From positions 1 to 32,965 of the forward strand of contig JARQZL010000036.1 of the NCBI GenBank assembly GCA_029984855.1: DNA of 32,965 bases, given 5' to 3'. This DNA is from Archaeoglobales archaeon (GTDB taxonomy: Archaea; Halobacteriota; Archaeoglobi; Archaeoglobales; Archaeoglobaceae). Made by a program: the position numbers and the translations under genes. The first letter of the stretch is position 1, and the number at the start of each line of letters is the position of its first letter. Shown here one piece after another: positions 7,078 to 26,775 of the stretch. The notes beneath the pieces were generated by a model. The model ran no database searches. It had not been told where the DNA came from and saw only the letters and a list, made by a program, of their open reading frames with translations.

Positions 7078-9190
<2,113 letters not shown>

Positions 9191-9211: not shown

Positions 9212-9258
9212 TAGGCGTCATCAGCCTTAACGGCAGTTGGGGGTGGACGCCATCACCC
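9212..9258 (-). ncRNA. Fluoride riboswitch aptamer (crcB motif)
   Basis: On the minus strand the 47-nt segment reads GGGTGATGGCG, then TCCACCC, AACTGCC, a five-base loop, GGCTGATG and ACGCCTA. This is the order and conserved sequence of the fluoride (crcB) aptamer as I recall it from the Thermotoga petrophila structure (GGGCGAUG..., AACUGCC..., GGCUGAUGG...). Three helices can be drawn: 9254-9258 with 9241-9245 (GGGTG/CACCC), 9246-9251 with 9214-9219 (GGCGTC/GACGCC), and 9232-9234 with 9224-9226 (GCC/GGC). It lies in the leader of the operon containing enolase, a known fluoride target and a known riboswitch-associated gene. A TATA-like element near 9289 would start the RNA at about 9263. I could not run a covariance model. 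Confidence 0.88.
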
Positions 9259-18583: not shown

Positions 18584-18693
18584 CTTTTTGATTTTGTTTT
18601 AACCTATAGTCTAAAAGTTTAAACTGATGGTTTTAAATTCCTGCCATCAGAAAAAGAACGATCGAAGAATTGATGATGAGTATAATAGCCAAG

Positions 18694-18704
18694 CTTTTTA
18701 TAAC
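18694..18704 (+). promoter_or_regulatory. TATA box of the glycogen cluster
   Basis: CTTTTTATAAC is centred 25 bp before ATG 18724, implying leaderless transcription of the glycogen synthase-like gene and ruling out starts further upstream (18670). Confidence 0.6.
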
Positions 18705-18723
18705 TCGCAGAACAATTTCTGTT

Positions 18724-20367
18724 ATGTTTATTGTCATCGCCAGCGAGGAAGCGGGACCTAAATCCAACAAGCTTGGAGGGGTGTGGAATGTTGTCGATGC
18801 AGAAGCAAGAAAAATGGCCGAAATAGCGGGGGAAGAAATCATACTTGCTGGCCCTCTTTTTGAGAGGTTGGGACAGGACTGGAGCCCGAAGAACAGGATT
18901 ACCGAAACGAGCTTCGAGGGCACCGTACCTCCCGAGGTAGAGGAGGCTGCAAAGAGCATCGGAATTCCATATTCTGCGGGTAAAACTGGAAAAGTGAACT
19001 ATGTGCTGTTCAATGTTGAAAGAGGTCTGGAAGAGACTGCAGTGTATGACGGGCGAAAGATGAGAAGGTGTGATGCTGTAAAGGCGGAGGCGTACAAGCT
19101 TGTGGGTCTTGACTCTTTGAAGTATGAAGCAACGAGCTATGGAGGGGAATACACGCACTATCTATGCCTGAGTCATGTAATCTCTGAGTTTGTGCGGGCT
19201 CTCGTTGAGTACGGTGGTGTATCGCTCCACTGCCATGAATACCCTGTTTTTTATGCAATCGCAAGGCTTGAGAAGCTGAAGGCTCCTGTCAGGACAGTTG
19301 CAACCTTTCATGCAACTAAGGTGGGAAGAGCTCTTGGTGTCAAGGTCTTTGAGAGAATAAGAAATGGTGATAGCAGCTTTCCGCCGAACATACAGCATGG
19401 CCTTGTAGAGCTGGAAAAGCTCGCCAGGTTTGCAAAGATTGTGACATTCGTCAGTGAGGGTACGAGGAGCGAGGCAAGGCTATTCTACAACATTGAGGGG
19501 CTTGTGATAAGAAACGGAATTGATGTTCCATACGAATACATTGACTGGGATAAGAAAAGCAGATGCATGAACAGAATCCGCTCCACGCTTGTATCCAAAC
19601 TTGGCAGTTTTAATGGAATTGAGCTGGAAGAGGAACAGATAATTCCGATTTATACAATCTCACGCCTGGAGCTTGAGAATAAGGGCTATCCGGATCTTCT
19701 CGATTCTCTTGTTATTCTCGACAGAATACTCACCACCAGAATTGAGAACGGTGAGATTGAAGAAGTTAAGGTGTTCTGTTTCCTGATAACTGCACATGGT
19801 TATAAGGATCCATCCACGCTTCCTGAAGGATTTCCCGTGTATCTTCCGGATGAAATACTCGTTGGAGATGAGCTCAGACTCAAGAAGATGGTTGAGGAGA
19901 GAAAGATTGACACAACCCACCTGAAAAAGAGAGCTGTTTGTGCTCTGCCATATCCCCAGTGGGTCGGCAGAAATGATGGTGGTTTAAATATGACAATAGA
20001 CGAGATCGCTGCAGGATGTGTTGCAGGTATATTTCCTTCCCGGTATGAGCCCTTCCTTCTTACCGCACTCGAAGCCTGCAGTGAAGCCTGCCCAGTGGTC
20101 ATAAGCAGGGCATGCGGGTTCAGTGGGGCAGTGAGGGAGCTACAGAAGAAGAAGGGGATATTTGGTGGAGTGATTCTGGTGGACAACATCGAGCAGAGTT
20201 ACCTCGAGACAGTGACGGATTATGCTTTTGGACTGCATGTCATAATTGATGCATATCTCAGGGATAAGGCGAAGGATAAGATGATGTGCTCAACAGCCTT
20301 CATTCTTGCCAATGAAATGAGCTGGGACGAGCCTGCGAGGAAGTATTACGAGATACTGCGTGAGTAA
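18724..20367 (+). CDS. GT3-like (eukaryotic-type) glycogen synthase
   Basis: 547 residues. It resembles family GT3, the animal and fungal glycogen synthases, rather than bacterial GlgA: an N-terminal loop SNKLGGVWNVVDAEA, a GPLFERLGQDW segment, TVATFHATKVGRALG (compare the HAT-x-x-GR motif of GT3), VTFVSEGTRSEA, IRNGIDVP, and a C-terminal domain with RYEPFLLTALEA holding the E-x7-E donor-site pair. It should extend alpha-1,4-glucan from UDP- or ADP-glucose in the cytoplasm. ATG 18724 fits the TATA box; an in-frame ATG at 18670 would lie upstream of that box. It leads a run of glucan genes and is separated from the next gene by a 138-bp AT-rich gap. Confidence 0.85.
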   Translation: MFIVIASEEAGPKSNKLGGVWNVVDAEARKMAEIAGEEIILAGPLFERLGQDWSPKNRITETSFEGTVPPEVEEAAKSIGIPYSAGKTGKVNYVLFNVERGLEETAVYDGRKMRRCDAVKAEAYKLVGLDSLKYEATSYGGEYTHYLCLSHVISEFVRALVEYGGVSLHCHEYPVFYAIARLEKLKAPVRTVATFHATKVGRALGVKVFERIRNGDSSFPPNIQHGLVELEKLARFAKIVTFVSEGTRSEARLFYNIEGLVIRNGIDVPYEYIDWDKKSRCMNRIRSTLVSKLGSFNGIELEEEQIIPIYTISRLELENKGYPDLLDSLVILDRILTTRIENGEIEEVKVFCFLITAHGYKDPSTLPEGFPVYLPDEILVGDELRLKKMVEERKIDTTHLKKRAVCALPYPQWVGRNDGGLNMTIDEIAAGCVAGIFPSRYEPFLLTALEACSEACPVVISRACGFSGAVRELQKKKGIFGGVILVDNIEQSYLETVTDYAFGLHVIIDAYLRDKAKDKMMCSTAFILANEMSWDEPARKYYEILRE

Positions 20368-20474
20368 TAATATAAGAATTAAGATATGAGTATATTCTGA
20401 ACAAAATTTTTAAAGGCTAATAATCTTGCAAATAGATAATTAAAACCAGTATATTTGATTAAAGAGGGAAAGAG

Positions 20475-20486
20475 CTAAATATTTAG
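20475..20486 (+). promoter_or_regulatory. Palindromic TATA element CTAAATATTTAG
   Basis: A perfect 12-bp palindrome centred 25 bp before ATG 20506, consistent with a TATA box for a leaderless message of the DUF835-like gene and the downstream glucan genes. The rest of the 138-bp gap (20368-20505) is AT-rich with no other clear structure. Confidence 0.5.
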
Positions 20487-20505
20487 GAGTAGACAAGTAA
20501 TAACT

Positions 20506-21087
20506 ATGTTAGACGATAAAAGGTTGCTTTTAATCTCCCAGTTCGGTGTTGAGGGCTATTCTCTCCTTGCCAAGCTCGGGTGTGTGCACCCCAAAATCCT
20601 GTGGATCTCATCCAACCCGTACATCCCGTGGAATATGCTGAAGATTTATTCCTACTCCGGTGATGCAAAGGTTCTCGGGTTCAGCAGGCAGAGCAAGGAC
20701 AGGATAAATCCTATGAATCTTAACGATCTCGGAATAGCCATCTCTTCATCCACAGAAAAAGGGCGTGCCATAGTTTTTTCATGCATATCAGAGCTTCTGA
20801 TGTTCCACAAGGTTGAACGGATTTACTATTTTCTGTCTAATATTATGGACAGTGTTGAAGAGGGCCAGTTTATAGGAATGATGATAGAAGGTGCTCAGAG
20901 CAAGAAAGACGAACTGCTTATTGCTACACTATTTGATGCAGTTTTTAGGCTCAGAAAGGAGAATGATGAACTTGTGCTATCGCCCGAGCTGTATCTCCCC
21001 AGAAAAACCTACAGCCTCAGGTATGAGAGAGGCATTGTTGAAATAGAGGGGGAGGAAATGGAGGAGGAAGTGGTTACCAATGTCTAA
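20506..21087 (+). CDS. DUF835-like protein
   Basis: 193 residues, no signal peptide or membrane segment. The middle resembles DUF835 (a RecA-like fold of unknown function in archaea): a strand LLLISQFGVEGYSLL, then WISSNPYIPWN, a strand GRAIVFSCISELLMFHKVERIYYFL, then helices and an acidic C-terminus. No Walker A motif is visible, so nucleotide hydrolysis is unlikely. The last 8 bp overlap the GH57 gene, so the two are coupled and a role in glucan metabolism is a reasonable inference. Family assignment is from pattern recall and needs a profile search. Confidence 0.65.
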   Translation: MLDDKRLLLISQFGVEGYSLLAKLGCVHPKILWISSNPYIPWNMLKIYSYSGDAKVLGFSRQSKDRINPMNLNDLGIAISSSTEKGRAIVFSCISELLMFHKVERIYYFLSNIMDSVEEGQFIGMMIEGAQSKKDELLIATLFDAVFRLRKENDELVLSPELYLPRKTYSLRYERGIVEIEGEEMEEEVVTNV

Positions 21088-22528
21088 GGTCTGCTTTGGC
21101 TTTGAGGTTCACCAGCCCTATCGCCTCAATCCGAAATTCAACTTTGAGGTTGCCAGAAAGAAAAGAAAGCTTACAGATATATACTTCAGCAGCAAAAACA
21201 AAGAAATTCTGAAGAAAGTTGTGGATAAATGCTATATCCCTGCAACGCAGATAGTGCTTGAAGGGCTTGATTCAGGTTTCAAATGTGCGTTCAGTTTCTC
21301 GGGCACTCTGATTGAGCAGCTTGAGAGGTGGGGAAATGATGCCCTTGATCTCTTTAAGCAGGTTGCGAAGCATAAAAATTCTGAAATTCTTGCTCAGACG
21401 TACTACCACAGCCTCGCAGGTCTTTTCGAGGATAAGAGCGAGCTTGAGGAGCAGATACTCCTTCACAGGAGTTGTATGAGAAATGTCTTCGGTGTTAATC
21501 CGGAGGTCTTTGAAAACACAGAGTTTATATTTAATAACTCAGTTGCATATACTGCGAAAAAGCTCGGTTTTAAGGCAGTGTTTACTGAAGGTGTTGAGAA
21601 GGTGTTGGAGTGGAGAAGCCCAAACTACGTTTACTCATGCAATGGAATAAAAATTCTGATGAGAAACTACATGCTTTCAGATGACATAGCCTTCAGGTTC
21701 TCATCCAGCCTGCTTACAGCAGATAAATTTGCAGGCTGGCTTGCAGCAACATCAGGCGATTGCATAAACATCTTTGTTGATTATGAAACGTTTGGAGAAC
21801 ACCACTGGGAGGAGAGCGGAATTCTGGAGTTTCTTAGGTGGTTGCCGGTTGAATGCATGAACAGGGGTTTAGAATTCGCAAAGCCGTCTGAGGTTGCAGA
21901 ATTTGATGCAAGAGATGAAATAGATGTTAATGACTTTGCAACGATATCGTGGGCAGATGTTGAGAAGGACACTTCAGCATGGCTTGGAAATGAGATGCAG
22001 CGAACAGCATTCAGAGAGGTGAAAAGAGCAAAAACTTATGCAGAGCATTACAGCAAGGACATATGGCGCTATCTCCAAACGAGTGACCACTACTACTATA
22101 TGGCAACTAAGGGGGGCTCGAGCGGAGAAGTTCATTCATACTTCAGCCAGCAAAATGCTTTTCATGCCTTTTCCACGTATATGAGAGTTCTCTCACACTA
22201 TGAAATGAGATGCGCATCAAGGATGAAGAGCAGAAAGGCTGCACTGGCATTGAGAGTTCTTCCGCCTGAAAAAGCCTTCCACTTCTGTACTTCATCAGGA
22301 TATACTGGTTTTTCTGCATACAGCCTTGACGACTTCTGTGAATGCCTTAAGGCAATTCCTGAAGACTCAGTCTCCTTCCATGCTGGGAGAGGGGACTTCT
22401 CGAAGTGGGTTGGGGGAGTTCTGGGTGAGAGAAAACTTGCTTCCGATTTGGGAGTATGTAGAACACGGGAAGAAATTATAGATGTTGTTGATAGAAGAAG
22501 GTGTGAGTTATGGAAACTCTTAAAATAG
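21080..22528 (+). CDS. Glycoside hydrolase family 57 alpha-amylase-type enzyme
   Basis: 482 residues. GH57 conserved regions in order: FEVHQPYRL (from residue 8), QTYYHSLAG, FENTEF with the nucleophile Glu at 148, FVDYETFGEHH with the acid Asp at 234, and SWADVEKDTSAWLGN. The enzyme is intracellular and acts on alpha-1,4-glucan as amylase or glucanotransferase. After the catalytic region an extra C-terminal domain (from about residue 395, FHFCTSSGYTGFSAYSLDDF, then HAGRGDFSKWVGGVLGE) resembles the small DUF5752 domain sometimes found beside glucan enzymes. It overlaps the next glycosyltransferase gene by 19 bp. Confidence 0.88.
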   Translation: MSKVCFGFEVHQPYRLNPKFNFEVARKKRKLTDIYFSSKNKEILKKVVDKCYIPATQIVLEGLDSGFKCAFSFSGTLIEQLERWGNDALDLFKQVAKHKNSEILAQTYYHSLAGLFEDKSELEEQILLHRSCMRNVFGVNPEVFENTEFIFNNSVAYTAKKLGFKAVFTEGVEKVLEWRSPNYVYSCNGIKILMRNYMLSDDIAFRFSSSLLTADKFAGWLAATSGDCINIFVDYETFGEHHWEESGILEFLRWLPVECMNRGLEFAKPSEVAEFDARDEIDVNDFATISWADVEKDTSAWLGNEMQRTAFREVKRAKTYAEHYSKDIWRYLQTSDHYYYMATKGGSSGEVHSYFSQQNAFHAFSTYMRVLSHYEMRCASRMKSRKAALALRVLPPEKAFHFCTSSGYTGFSAYSLDDFCECLKAIPEDSVSFHAGRGDFSKWVGGVLGERKLASDLGVCRTREEIIDVVDRRRCELWKLLK

Positions 22529-23643
22529 CCTTCTTTTGCTGGGAATCCCTCCATGCGGAAAGGGTTGGTGGTTTGGCAAGAGCTGCCACGCATCTTGCAG
22601 AAACACTTGGAGGAAATCATGAAGTTCACTTTTTCACGAGAGGGGGAGAAGATAAAGAGATTAACGGCGTCCACTATCACTACTGCAGACCGTGGGGTGG
22701 AAATATCATCGACTACTGCAGAGATATGAGCCTGAAAATGGTTGAAAGATTTAAAGAATTTGATTCTCCAAAGTTTGACATCCTCCACTTCAATGACTGG
22801 CATGTTGTTGAGGCGATGCATATTCTGAAGGATAGAAACACTGTTTTCACCTTTCACTCCACAGAATACGGGAGGAATGGAAATAATTTTGGTGACTGGT
22901 GGGAGTTCAAAGAGATTTCAGGCAAGGAGTGGTATGCCGGCCTCATAGCGAAGAGGATAACTACAGTTTCCAACACACTCAAAAACGAGGTGATGTGGCT
23001 CTACAATATCCCTGACTGGAAGATAAGCGTGGTACCGAACGGTATAGTTCCTGAAGAGTTTCAGGCCGATGTGGATCCGGGAGAGGTGAAGGAAGACTAC
23101 GGTCTTCATCCCCTCGCTCCCCTCGTCTTTTTCGCTGGAAGGCTTGTTTATCAGAAGGGGCCGGACTTGCTTGTAGATGCAATCCCCTTTGTTTTGAACC
23201 ACAGATGGGATGTAAAGTTCCTCTTCGCTGGAGACGGAGGCATGAAACTTTGGCTTGAGGAGAGGGCCAGAGGATTGCCCGCAAAGTTTCTCGGCTATCT
23301 GCCAGATTTTGAATTCGTAAGGTTGCTAAATGCAAGCGACATTGTTGTCATTCCGAGCAGAAACGAGCCTTTCGGTCTTGTTCTGCTCGAAGCATGGAGT
23401 GCTGAAAGGTGCGTTGTTGCAACTGAAGTTGGAGGGCTTGGGGAGAACATAGATAACTTTGTTGATGGAATAAAAGTCTACGTCAACCCCGGGTCAATTG
23501 CCTGGGGTATAAACTACGTTATAGATGATCCTGTTGGCGTTCAAATTCTTGGAAGGAGAGGAAAGCAGAAAGTTGAAAGGCAATTCAGGTGGAAAGTAAT
23601 AGCAGATAAGATGCTGAAGGTTTACCGGGAAGTGATGCAATGA
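22510..23643 (+). CDS. Family 4 glycosyltransferase
   Basis: 377 residues, GT-B fold. The N-terminal domain has the glycine loop ERVGGLARAATHLAETL and FNDWHVVEA; the C-terminal domain has FFAGRLVYQKGPDLL, the retaining donor-site motif SRNEPFGLVLLEAW (E-x7-E) and a terminal helix. Such enzymes transfer glucose or other sugars from nucleotide sugars. In this position it is probably a glucan synthase or initiator, e.g. using ADP- or UDP-glucose. ATG 22510 lies inside the GH57 3' end and its stop overlaps the next gene by 4 bp. Confidence 0.87.
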   Translation: METLKIAFFCWESLHAERVGGLARAATHLAETLGGNHEVHFFTRGGEDKEINGVHYHYCRPWGGNIIDYCRDMSLKMVERFKEFDSPKFDILHFNDWHVVEAMHILKDRNTVFTFHSTEYGRNGNNFGDWWEFKEISGKEWYAGLIAKRITTVSNTLKNEVMWLYNIPDWKISVVPNGIVPEEFQADVDPGEVKEDYGLHPLAPLVFFAGRLVYQKGPDLLVDAIPFVLNHRWDVKFLFAGDGGMKLWLEERARGLPAKFLGYLPDFEFVRLLNASDIVVIPSRNEPFGLVLLEAWSAERCVVATEVGGLGENIDNFVDGIKVYVNPGSIAWGINYVIDDPVGVQILGRRGKQKVERQFRWKVIADKMLKVYREVMQ

Positions 23644-24878
23644 GGATGGTATATTTTGTTGATGAATTTCCCCCTTTTTTTAGAGGGGGGCTTGGTACGT
23701 ATGCAATGGAGATTACAAGGCAGATCGTGAGACTCGACCATACAATAACGGTGTTCTCCAGAAATACAGGTGATGACCCGACAAGGGATATATGGGAGGG
23801 TGTTGAAGTCCACCGCCCTCTCCTGATGAACATCGTTGACGTCTTGCCAATAGCGGTTCCTGAAGACGTTAAAAGGTGGCCCATTGGATCACAGGAGTTT
23901 TTCGGTGAAACTCTTCTCTACAACTTTCTTTCAGCCTCTAAGCTTGTCAACAGGCTTGTTGCTAAAGAACGGAGGAAGTTTGACATTCTTGTCTCCCACG
24001 ACTGGCTTGCAGCTCTCGCCGGCATAATTGCAAAAAGGAATCTGAATCTTCCATTCGTCTTCCATTTTCATTCAACCGAACAGGGAAGGACGAAAGATGG
24101 CTCACCTACAGTTAAGGAGATAGAGAGGATGGCCGGTCTGAAGGCTGACCTTATAGTTACCGTAAGCTATGCCATGCGGGACGAACTCGTGAGCCTCGGT
24201 TACCCGGAGCAGAAGATAAGAGTGGTTTACAATGGCGTCGATGAAAGAAAGTACAGACCGGATAGATTTCCAGAAGATGAGGTCAGGGCTTTCAGAGAGA
24301 GGATAGGTGTGGGAGACAGCCCAATGATTTTGTTTGTTGGCAGACTTGCATGGGTTAAGGGAGCAGACACCCTCATAAGAGCAATGCCACTGATACTGCG
24401 GGAAGTGCCGGATGCGAAGCTGGTGATACTCGGCAAGGGTGACCAGCAGACTCTTCTCGTTCAGCTTGTGCACTCTCTTGGTCTGCAGGAAAATGTGATA
24501 CTTCATTTCAAGTATGTGAGTGAAGAGGAAAGAATACTGTACTATGCGGCATGCGATGTTGCCGTATTTCCATCCAAATACGAACCATTTGGTATTGTTT
24601 GCACAGAAGCAATGGCTATGGGAAAGCCCGTTGTTGTGGGAGCAAGAGGGACTTCTGGAATGAGAGAGCAAGTAATTCCTGAAGGAAGCAATGCATGTGG
24701 CTTTCACGTTAACCCCTATGACCCTGCGGACATAGCCAAATTCGTTCTCACTCTGTTGAAAGATACTGACTTGAGGAGTAAAATGGGCAGAAATGCAAGA
24801 AGCAGGGTTCTGGAGAGATTTACATGGAAAGCTGTGGCGGATAACACCATTAATGTTTATGAGGAGGTTGTATCGTGA
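23640..24878 (+). CDS. Family 4/5-like glycosyltransferase (glycogen synthase-like)
   Basis: 412 residues, GT-B fold. The start DEFPPFFRGGLGTYAMEIT resembles the ADP-glucose loop of archaeal glycogen synthases. Further motifs: SHDWLAALAG, FHSTEQGR, VSYAMRDEL, YNGVDERKY, FVGRLAWVKGADTL and the donor motif SKYEPFGIVCTEAMA. It is a paralogue of the preceding glycosyltransferase, so the cluster has three synthase-type genes. The stop overlaps the next gene by 4 bp (GTGA). Confidence 0.88.
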   Translation: MRMVYFVDEFPPFFRGGLGTYAMEITRQIVRLDHTITVFSRNTGDDPTRDIWEGVEVHRPLLMNIVDVLPIAVPEDVKRWPIGSQEFFGETLLYNFLSASKLVNRLVAKERRKFDILVSHDWLAALAGIIAKRNLNLPFVFHFHSTEQGRTKDGSPTVKEIERMAGLKADLIVTVSYAMRDELVSLGYPEQKIRVVYNGVDERKYRPDRFPEDEVRAFRERIGVGDSPMILFVGRLAWVKGADTLIRAMPLILREVPDAKLVILGKGDQQTLLVQLVHSLGLQENVILHFKYVSEEERILYYAACDVAVFPSKYEPFGIVCTEAMAMGKPVVVGARGTSGMREQVIPEGSNACGFHVNPYDPADIAKFVLTLLKDTDLRSKMGRNARSRVLERFTWKAVADNTINVYEEVVS

Positions 24879-25081
24879 AATCCGTTATAATCTCCAAAAA
24901 GCTCGATCCAGAGGCAAAGAAGATGCTTGAGGAGAGGCTTGGTGAGATAAAAGGATTTAAAGAAATCATTTTCGGTTACATTTCTGCTGAGATAGTCTTT
25001 GAGGAGAAAGAGGTTGGAGAGTGCCTGAATCTCCTCAAGGAGCTGAATATACCGGTTGAGAGAGTAGTTGATAAGAGATGA
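24875..25081 (+). CDS. 68-residue conserved-context protein of unknown function
   Basis: A small soluble protein: VIISKKLDPEAKKMLEERL, then KEIIFGYISAEIVFEEKEV, then CLNLLKELNIPVERVVDKR, i.e. strand-helix-strand-strand-helix-strand. GTG 24875 is supported by a strong GAGGAGGTT ribosome site (24861-24869) and 4-bp overlaps with the genes on both sides. The tight coupling to a glycosyltransferase and the debranching enzyme suggests a role in the same pathway, maybe as a regulator; I do not recognise the family. Confidence 0.75.
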   Translation: MKSVIISKKLDPEAKKMLEERLGEIKGFKEIIFGYISAEIVFEEKEVGECLNLLKELNIPVERVVDKR

Positions 25082-26775
25082 TAGGATTTGGAAGTGAAAT
25101 CAGAGATTACAGCTTTGCAAGCAGGAGAGAATTTATAATGGTCAGCGGAGATAGTTACTGCTCTTCCTCGCTTGCAGGAAACACAAGAAAGTATCATGGC
25201 CTTCTCGTTTCTGGTAGGAGAGTTTATCTCTCAACCCTTGATGAATTTATAAACGGGAAGCGAATATCGGTTGCGAGGTACTCTGGAGGTTTTGACAGTG
25301 GCCTTGAGTATGTGACTGGATTCAGTCTTTATCCTCCGGAGTTTCACTACTTCGTGGACGGTGTGTTTGTTAAAAAAACGATTGTGTTTGACGGTTCTGT
25401 GAGAATAAAGTATGACGTTCTCGGGAAAGCGGAGATACAGGTTGTTCCCCTTATAACGGACAGAAACATCCATGAAACCAGAAAAACCTTTGATTTCTCC
25501 CAGAAGAGGCTTGAAGATGGTATCGCAGTGGGGAGGTTGAGAATAACGTCACCGGAGATGAACTTTCATGAGAGCCCGGATATATACTGGAATGTATTTT
25601 ATTCAAAGGATTATGAACGGGGATACGATTGTATAGAACATCTGTACACACCCGGCTACTTCTCATGTACGGTCAAAAACGGAAGCGTTGAAGTTAAGGC
25701 AGAGATTGAGGGAGCTGAGAAGATAGCTAAAGCTGTAAGCCATAAAAGACCCTCAACTTCTGTTGAATGCTTAGAGCTGTCGGCAGATAGTTTCCTTGTT
25801 GGCAGTACAATATATGCGGGCTATCACTGGTTTGCCGAGCCATGGGGGAGGGATGCGTTTATAAGCCTGCCCGGTCTCTTGCTTGAAAGAGAGAAATTCA
25901 GAGAAGCGAAAAACGTTTTCAGATTTTTTGCAAAAAGAATGAAAAATGGCGTAATTCCAAATGTTTTGGGCAAGTACAACTCAAGCGATGCCTCGCTCTG
26001 GTTTATTTACGCACTGACAAAATACTTCGAGAAGAGGGAAGATAAGGAGTTCCTTTCTAAAATGAAGCCGTACGTTGAAGAAATCATGACGAAGTATCCT
26101 GAAAGCGATATTGCAGAGCTCGATGGATACCTGATTTCTGTGAAGCCATGCAGCACTTGGATGGATACCCGGTACACTCCGAGGGAAGGAAAGCCTGTTG
26201 AGATAAATGCACTCTGGATTTACTCTCTGAAATTTGCTCAATCAATTGGTATTGAAGTTCCCTTTTCGCCAAAAAAAGCTGAAAAAGAGTTTAACAGGTT
26301 CTGGAATCCAGAAAAGAGCTGTTTTTACGATGTAATCGACCCTTACGATGACTCAATAAGGCCTAATCAGGTTATAGCAGTCGCTCTGGGTGTTGGAGAT
26401 GGTGAAAGAGCAAAGGCTCTTAATGTCATCAGAACCAGGCTGCTAACTCCGTACGGGCTGAGGACTCTCTCCCCCGATGATGATAGATACAGGGGAAGGT
26501 ACTGCGGAGACAAATCGTACCACAACGGATGCGTGTGGCCCTGGCTCATGGGATTCTACGTAGAGGCTCTTCTGAGACAGGGAGAGTCGGGAGATAGGTT
26601 GAAGATGCTCCTGATCCCTCTGCTTGAGCACATCAGAGATGCAGGATTGGGAACTATTTCGGAAATATTCGATGGAGATCCCCCTCATGAACCGAATGGA
26701 TGTATCTCTCAGGCATGGAGCGTTGCCGAAGTTCTTAGAGCTTGCAAACTCCTCTCAGGGTTTGAATTTACTTAA
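25078..26775 (+). CDS. Glycogen debranching enzyme (amylo-alpha-1,6-glucosidase, GH133)
   Basis: 565 residues. An N-terminal GDE_N-type beta-sandwich (SSSLAGNTRKYHGLLV, around residues 27-43) is followed by an alpha/alpha barrel GDE_C domain: HWFAEPWGRDAFISLPGLLL with D259, YNSSDASLWFI, CSTWMDTR, VEINALW, RPNQV, YHNGCVWPWL and GTISEIFDGDPPHEPNG. It removes alpha-1,6-linked branches in glycogen. Its ATG overlaps the upstream stop (ATGA). It ends only 3 bp from the stop of the convergent P-type ATPase gene. Confidence 0.93.
   Translation: MIGFGSEIRDYSFASRREFIMVSGDSYCSSSLAGNTRKYHGLLVSGRRVYLSTLDEFINGKRISVARYSGGFDSGLEYVTGFSLYPPEFHYFVDGVFVKKTIVFDGSVRIKYDVLGKAEIQVVPLITDRNIHETRKTFDFSQKRLEDGIAVGRLRITSPEMNFHESPDIYWNVFYSKDYERGYDCIEHLYTPGYFSCTVKNGSVEVKAEIEGAEKIAKAVSHKRPSTSVECLELSADSFLVGSTIYAGYHWFAEPWGRDAFISLPGLLLEREKFREAKNVFRFFAKRMKNGVIPNVLGKYNSSDASLWFIYALTKYFEKREDKEFLSKMKPYVEEIMTKYPESDIAELDGYLISVKPCSTWMDTRYTPREGKPVEINALWIYSLKFAQSIGIEVPFSPKKAEKEFNRFWNPEKSCFYDVIDPYDDSIRPNQVIAVALGVGDGERAKALNVIRTRLLTPYGLRTLSPDDDRYRGRYCGDKSYHNGCVWPWLMGFYVEALLRQGESGDRLKMLLIPLLEHIRDAGLGTISEIFDGDPPHEPNGCISQAWSVAEVLRACKLLSGFEFT

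Follow-up and report, generated by a model that had tools for sequence, protein, structure and literature searches.

A fluoride riboswitch upstream of an alpha/alpha-toroid protein gene and an enolase in an Archaeoglobales genome: a proposed translational ON switch

The window, a 32,965-nucleotide stretch of an Archaeoglobales genome, carries on its minus strand a fluoride riboswitch aptamer followed by three genes. The first (9190-8360, start codon TTG at 9190) encodes a 276-aa protein with a PF00432 alpha/alpha-toroid domain (Pfam, 62.8 bits), referred to here as the toroid protein; the second (8355-7078, ATG at 8355) encodes an enolase of 425 aa; and the last (7059-6661) encodes a 132-aa protein combining a Zn-ribbon with HEAT repeats (PF13646, 42.8 bits). 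Only 4 nt separate the toroid stop codon from the enolase ATG, and the enolase has a Shine-Dalgarno (SD) sequence of its own, AGGAGGAG (8370-8363, minus strand), inside the 3' end of the toroid gene. The aptamer match ends 15 nt upstream of the toroid start, in leader position, and the HMG-CoA reductase gene further upstream (10600-9332) ends before this leader. By inspection, a possible archaeal TATA-like box, CTTAAAG, lies at 9292-9286 (minus strand), from which the transcript could start close to the 5' end of the aptamer. The first-pass annotation had placed a fluoride riboswitch in the leader of an operon that includes enolase and had noted that the first gene is not a fluoride exporter; both points hold, enolase being the second gene, and an exporter is found nowhere among the operon genes. 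On the plus strand, the window also contains a glycogen-type cluster (18670-26775), with glycogen synthase-like, GH57, glycosyltransferase and amylo-alpha-1,6-glucosidase genes.

RF01734 (Fluoride) was the sole Rfam family above its gathering score in the window (cmscan). The match (9266-9205, minus strand) scores 52.9 bits against a curated gathering score of 34 bits (E 4.2e-12), spans model positions 1-64 of 64 without a single non-standard pair, and is the only one in the whole genome of 2,127,036 bases (2.13 Mb). The coordinates first assigned to the element, 9212-9258, cover the aptamer core and fall short of the full model match; the crcB aptamer blocks recognised there, their order and the three helices are all present. 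P1 is formed by GGGTG (9258-9254) and CACCC (9245-9241), P2 by GCC (9234-9232) and GGC (9226-9224), and the pseudoknot by GGCGTC (9251-9246) and GACGCC (9219-9214). The P1 5' strand follows the model structure line, the P1 3' strand and P2 the model structure together with an alignment of 39 distinct archaeal aptamers, and the pseudoknot that alignment. Across the 39 aptamers, 98.0% of cells are paired, against 32-55% when the structure is slid by 1-3 columns, and both-sided changes occur at 6 of the 13 pairs, amounting to 65 such cells versus 20 in shuffles. The pseudoknot is paired in 100% of cells, with both-sided changes at three of its six pairs, and one P1 pair covaries between C-G and U-A (20:18).

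Could the element be a chance match or a decayed, functionless aptamer? Decayed relatives do occur, in both copies of one Archaeoglobi genome (G020) and as a remnant with an intact 3' half in another (G029), but this explanation is scarcely credible for the window, where the full-length score rules out chance, no pair is broken and all core positions are intact. With the strong covariance-model match and the aptamer kept in orthologous Archaeoglobi leaders, the identification withstood the checks that the first-pass annotation had proposed. Judged by class membership from its sequence, the window element is a genuine fluoride riboswitch, with the same helices, pseudoknot and conserved nucleotides as the crcB motif (RF01734; Weinberg 2010, Baker 2012). 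The class, including its presence in archaea, is already known (Weinberg 2010, PMC2864571).

The genes controlled by such elements were compared across archaea. RF01734 is present in 14 of 59 Archaeoglobi genomes, and most of these riboswitches have the toroid gene as their first gene; others precede the membrane subunit of a formate-hydrogenlyase-type hydrogenase (the subunit being named by sequence inspection). Twenty-one Archaeoglobi genomes encode a toroid orthologue scoring 200 bits or more, with the riboswitch just upstream in 9, crcB immediately downstream in 8 and crcB divergent in 1, so that a riboswitch upstream and/or an adjacent crcB accompanies the toroid gene in 15 of the 21. The family is retained even where crcB is absent. 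Outside Archaeoglobi, a toroid profile run against 394 genomes of the phylum returned 25 genes scoring 180 bits or more in 23 genomes, all of which are RF01734-positive against a background of 66 positives in ~337 (Fisher p ~1e-18, a value that is too small because the genomes are related to one another); riboswitch-linked members contributed to the profile, but the search itself made no use of linkage. For 23 of the 25 genes, a same-strand riboswitch is found no more than 2 kb upstream, in most cases within 30 nt, and the two unlinked ones are found at a contig start (G077, C46) and on contig C67 of G100.

Standing so consistently behind fluoride riboswitches across archaea, the toroid gene resembles one for an undescribed fluoride-response protein. 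These sequence comparisons indicate that the conserved riboswitch partner is the toroid gene, and that the enolase is a lineage-specific addition. The initial view of the leader as an enolase leader is therefore revised: among the other Archaeoglobaceae, what follows the riboswitch is the toroid gene or the hydrogenase subunit, and enolase is encoded at another site. Enolase was accordingly rejected as the conserved regulated gene, the native Archaeoglobaceae enolases being also of a different type.

The toroid protein is predicted (AlphaFold2 pLDDT 90.9) to adopt the alpha/alpha-toroid fold common to the PF00432 prenyltransferase-beta/squalene-cyclase superfamily. Comparison with the PDB gives Rab geranylgeranyltransferase beta and terpene cyclases as the best matches, with TM-scores of 0.35-0.66 and 12-19% identity, and the protein has no NCBIfam match at E 1e-5. 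Unlike the superfamily enzymes, the 28 toroid proteins compared have no conserved Cys or His column that could correspond to the Zn ligands (Asp, Cys, His) of protein prenyltransferase beta subunits, and the squalene-hopene-type DxDD motif is absent from all 28. Conserved acidic columns are found at 39, 214 and 261, and at 171 in 89% of members, along with a conserved Arg251. On these motifs a prenyltransferase or squalene cyclase was rejected, and either activity is unlikely. Gene context suggests a role in fluoride tolerance, and the protein may act on fluoride itself, on Mg-fluoride complexes or on a partner that is sensitive to fluoride.

No CrcB/Fluc exporter was found by PF02537 in this genome (G000). 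A CLC-F exporter would be recognised as a CLC protein with a fluoride-type filter, usually without CBS domains; the genome encodes two long PF00654 (CLC-type) proteins, and the one checked has 580 aa and a GREGP motif.

The enolase matches the TIGR01060 equivalog at ~658.5 bits (curated cut-off 300), and its best PDB relative is 4yws. It is the single enolase match in a genome that is 99.99% complete by markers and comprises 154 contigs, although a second copy could possibly lie in an assembly gap. Nearly all other Archaeoglobaceae, among them the complete genome G019 of the same genus, carry a different, archaeal-type enolase (416-488 bits), and the window enolase is ~42% identical to native archaeal enolases. 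The exception is genus g12 (G040-G042), where a window-type enolase is likewise the sole enolase, but not beside an RF01734 match. In a maximum-likelihood tree, the window enolase falls in a clade of 12 rows (support 100/99) together with 8 riboswitch-linked methanogen enolases and those of g12; the tree holds no bacterial enolases, so that neither a donor nor a ‘bacterial-type’ label can be read from it. Methanogens with a riboswitch-linked enolase carry a second enolase elsewhere. Taken at the level of sequence, this suggests that a riboswitch-associated enolase type stands in place of the native archaeal type in the window lineage. On balance we favour the combined view that the toroid proteins of Archaeoglobi and methanogens are a dedicated, undescribed fluoride-response family and that, in the window lineage, the riboswitch-associated enolase replaced the housekeeping one.

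Enolase stands behind a fluoride riboswitch at nine methanogen loci (L073, L079, L116-L120, L125 and L126), and the toroid-enolase order recurs in G075 (L119) and G070 (L116). At L119 the riboswitch, toroid and enolase are directly followed by a plasma-membrane H+ P-type ATPase gene (TIGR01647; 7555-10032, plus strand). Enolase N-terminal fragments of 87 and 99 aa with the PSGASTG loop were also seen right behind riboswitches (L118:7008-7271 and L132:5995-6294, both plus strand); at L118 the remainder of an enolase lies ~1 kb beyond the fragment, and both are probably broken enolases.

Homologues of the Zn-ribbon/HEAT gene are likewise found directly behind a riboswitch and toroid gene (L096, L100, L113, L114, L118, L124), and toroid-HEAT pairs recur at L096, L100 and L107-L109 and at methanogen loci L113, L114, L118 and L124. 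In G019 the riboswitch, toroid and HEAT genes occur together without enolase. Since the toroid, enolase and HEAT genes all recur behind other fluoride riboswitches, each appears to be an independent member of archaeal fluoride gene sets. Some of these sets form islands, with seven RF01734 matches in ~13 kb at L113 (G373:C3:199000-217000) and eight in ~12 kb at L114 (G297:C16:67000-86000). At L114 a glutamine synthetase gene starts at a riboswitch, with a dihydroxy-acid dehydratase gene nearby, and at L113 a dynamin-like GTPase gene follows one. In methanogens, the riboswitch is often followed first by a gene for a dynamin-like GTPase of ~600 aa (L073, L113, L116, L117, L118, L120, L124-L126), frequently with enolase or toroid next.

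The window leader contains a second set of complementary sequences. Just 3' of the aptamer lie the SD sequence GGAGGTG (9203-9197) and its extension GGTGGAC (9200-9194), the latter being the exact complement of GTCCACC (9248-9242), an anti-SD that shares bases with the loop of the pseudoknot and with the 3' strand of P1. The resulting duplex is worth -19.3 kcal/mol; among 68 control gene starts, which bear an SD and no aptamer and exclude riboswitch genes, a single one reaches this value. In 13 intact Archaeoglobi leaders, pairing between the aptamer strand and the SD zone averages -18.9 kcal/mol, against -9.2 in the 68 controls (Mann-Whitney p 8e-9), and in 10 of the 13 the energy is matched by no control. 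GGTGG, a lengthening of the SD that favours pairing with the aptamer and not with the 16S rRNA, is present in 11 of 13 leaders versus 9 of 41 controls (Fisher p 9e-5). In the window, the modelled SD-aptamer pairing reaches a mean probability of 0.87 at 37 C and 0.83 at 75 C (pseudoknot-free ensemble). The predicted ensembles of most leaders pair the SD to the aptamer; at L004 it pairs weakly at 37 C (0.13), and in both decayed G020 copies most of the pairing is gone. Five leaders in genera g11 and g12 (L007, L008, L011, L013, L015), in which the riboswitch precedes a HyfC/NuoH-like hydrogenase subunit, have the same anti-SD layout as the window.

In the models, GUCCACC is common to P1 and the pseudoknot on the one hand and to the SD pairing on the other, giving mutually exclusive folds, and this sharing is conserved in the 13 leaders. 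The minimum-free-energy (OFF) fold of the window leader is -37.9 kcal/mol, and in it CACCTGCC (9187-9180), covering toroid codons 2-4, is predicted to pair with GGCGGGTG (9261-9254), which includes the P1 5' strand. At 37 C the aptamer state amounts to -26.9 kcal/mol without the pseudoknot, to which the pseudoknot adds ~-9.6 before loop penalty; the fold calculations leave the pseudoknot out and reach growth temperature by extrapolation, and the treatment of both pseudoknot energetics and temperature is crude. The aptamer state is thus close to, and not below, the OFF fold, so that ligand energy would be needed and the balance is uncertain.

Riboswitches of this class are known to bind fluoride with Mg2+. 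The element is likely, in our view, to act as a translational ON switch for the toroid, enolase and Zn-ribbon/HEAT genes, which would together form an operon responding to fluoride. Without fluoride, GUCCACC would pair with GGUGGAC at the SD while the P1 5' strand pairs with codons 2-4, closing both the ribosome site and the start codon. Fluoride, with Mg2+, would lock P1 and the pseudoknot and, the same bases being used in both structures, would free the SD. More toroid protein would then be translated and, by coupling, more of the enolase encoded 4 nt behind, the extra enzyme offsetting the inhibition of enolase by fluoride. The sequences themselves show the class membership, the conserved complementarity, and the gene content of the operon and its recurrence; we infer that the window copy binds fluoride, that it switches translation, that the enolase is coupled to it and that the proteins are protective. 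As the enolase has a strong SD of its own, it may be only loosely coupled to the switch and, if it is the sole copy, it must be made without fluoride too.

The same facts lend themselves to a narrower reading, in which the riboswitch governs the toroid gene alone and the enolase and HEAT genes are constitutive passengers, each translated from a ribosome site of its own or driven by an internal promoter. The enolase SD, the apparent dependence of the cell on this one enolase in fluoride-free conditions and the riboswitch-toroid-HEAT arrangement of G019 without enolase would all fit, but we find passenger status rather doubtful given how repeatedly enolase stands behind fluoride riboswitches, in methanogens and in bacteria (PMC11139923), and given that the window enolase falls in a clade holding riboswitch-placed enolases. 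Control might also be exerted on transcription, with RNA polymerase terminating or pausing without fluoride at the U-rich stretch after the aptamer (CCUAUUUUGG) and reading through once fluoride stabilises the fold. A UAUUUU run does lie directly behind the pseudoknot strand, U-rich tails recur in relatives, and for many bacterial representatives of the class control runs through terminators that overlap them (Weinberg 2010, PMC2864571). Such control is nonetheless improbable here: no terminator-like hairpin was found on the minus strand in the leader, the strong and conserved SD complementarity would lack an explanation, and a Thermococcus kodakarensis fluoride riboswitch is described as presumably translational in an article on archaeal riboswitches (PMC8241225).

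That riboswitch, from an anaerobic hyperthermophilic archaeon, has been tested (Speed et al. 2018, as cited in PMC8241225), and so the first-pass remark that the archaeal class is sparsely studied, especially in anaerobic hyperthermophiles, needs correction to that extent. Like the window element, it belongs to a heat-loving anaerobic archaeon, and it resembles the translational ON switch that we propose for the window, but is described there as regulating fluoride-export genes. The downstream genes of RF01734 relatives include enolase, crcB, antiporter-like and formate-hydrogenlyase-type genes, and the leader position is shared with the window; the enolase and formate-hydrogenlyase links are themselves already known (PMC11139923). 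Compared with known RF01734 systems, the window differs in its toroid first gene, in that no terminator was found, and in that the aptamer itself supplies the anti-SD, from the 3' strand of P1 and the loop of the pseudoknot. Bacteria, too, are known to have enolase genes under fluoride riboswitches (PMC11139923). As in the window, enolase belongs there to fluoride-controlled operons (Enterobacter cloacae FRM, PMC5533749; review PMC11139923), in which it is thought to offset inhibition; the window enolase differs in that no other was found in its genome and in that it lies behind a toroid gene. In the literature searched, with incomplete coverage of key papers, we found nothing linking the toroid family or Archaeoglobus to fluoride riboswitches, and no description of the anti-SD layout.

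To our knowledge, little is known of how archaea without the usual exporter cope with fluoride. The toroid family now provides a specific candidate gene family for the archaeal fluoride response, and the modelled leader suggests an archaeal translational switch of simple design, where the aptamer itself would act as the anti-Shine-Dalgarno. Enolase appears to have joined fluoride operons repeatedly, and in the window genome the copy so placed is the sole enolase found; if this is true, an essential enzyme would have been placed inside a fluoride operon in the window lineage.
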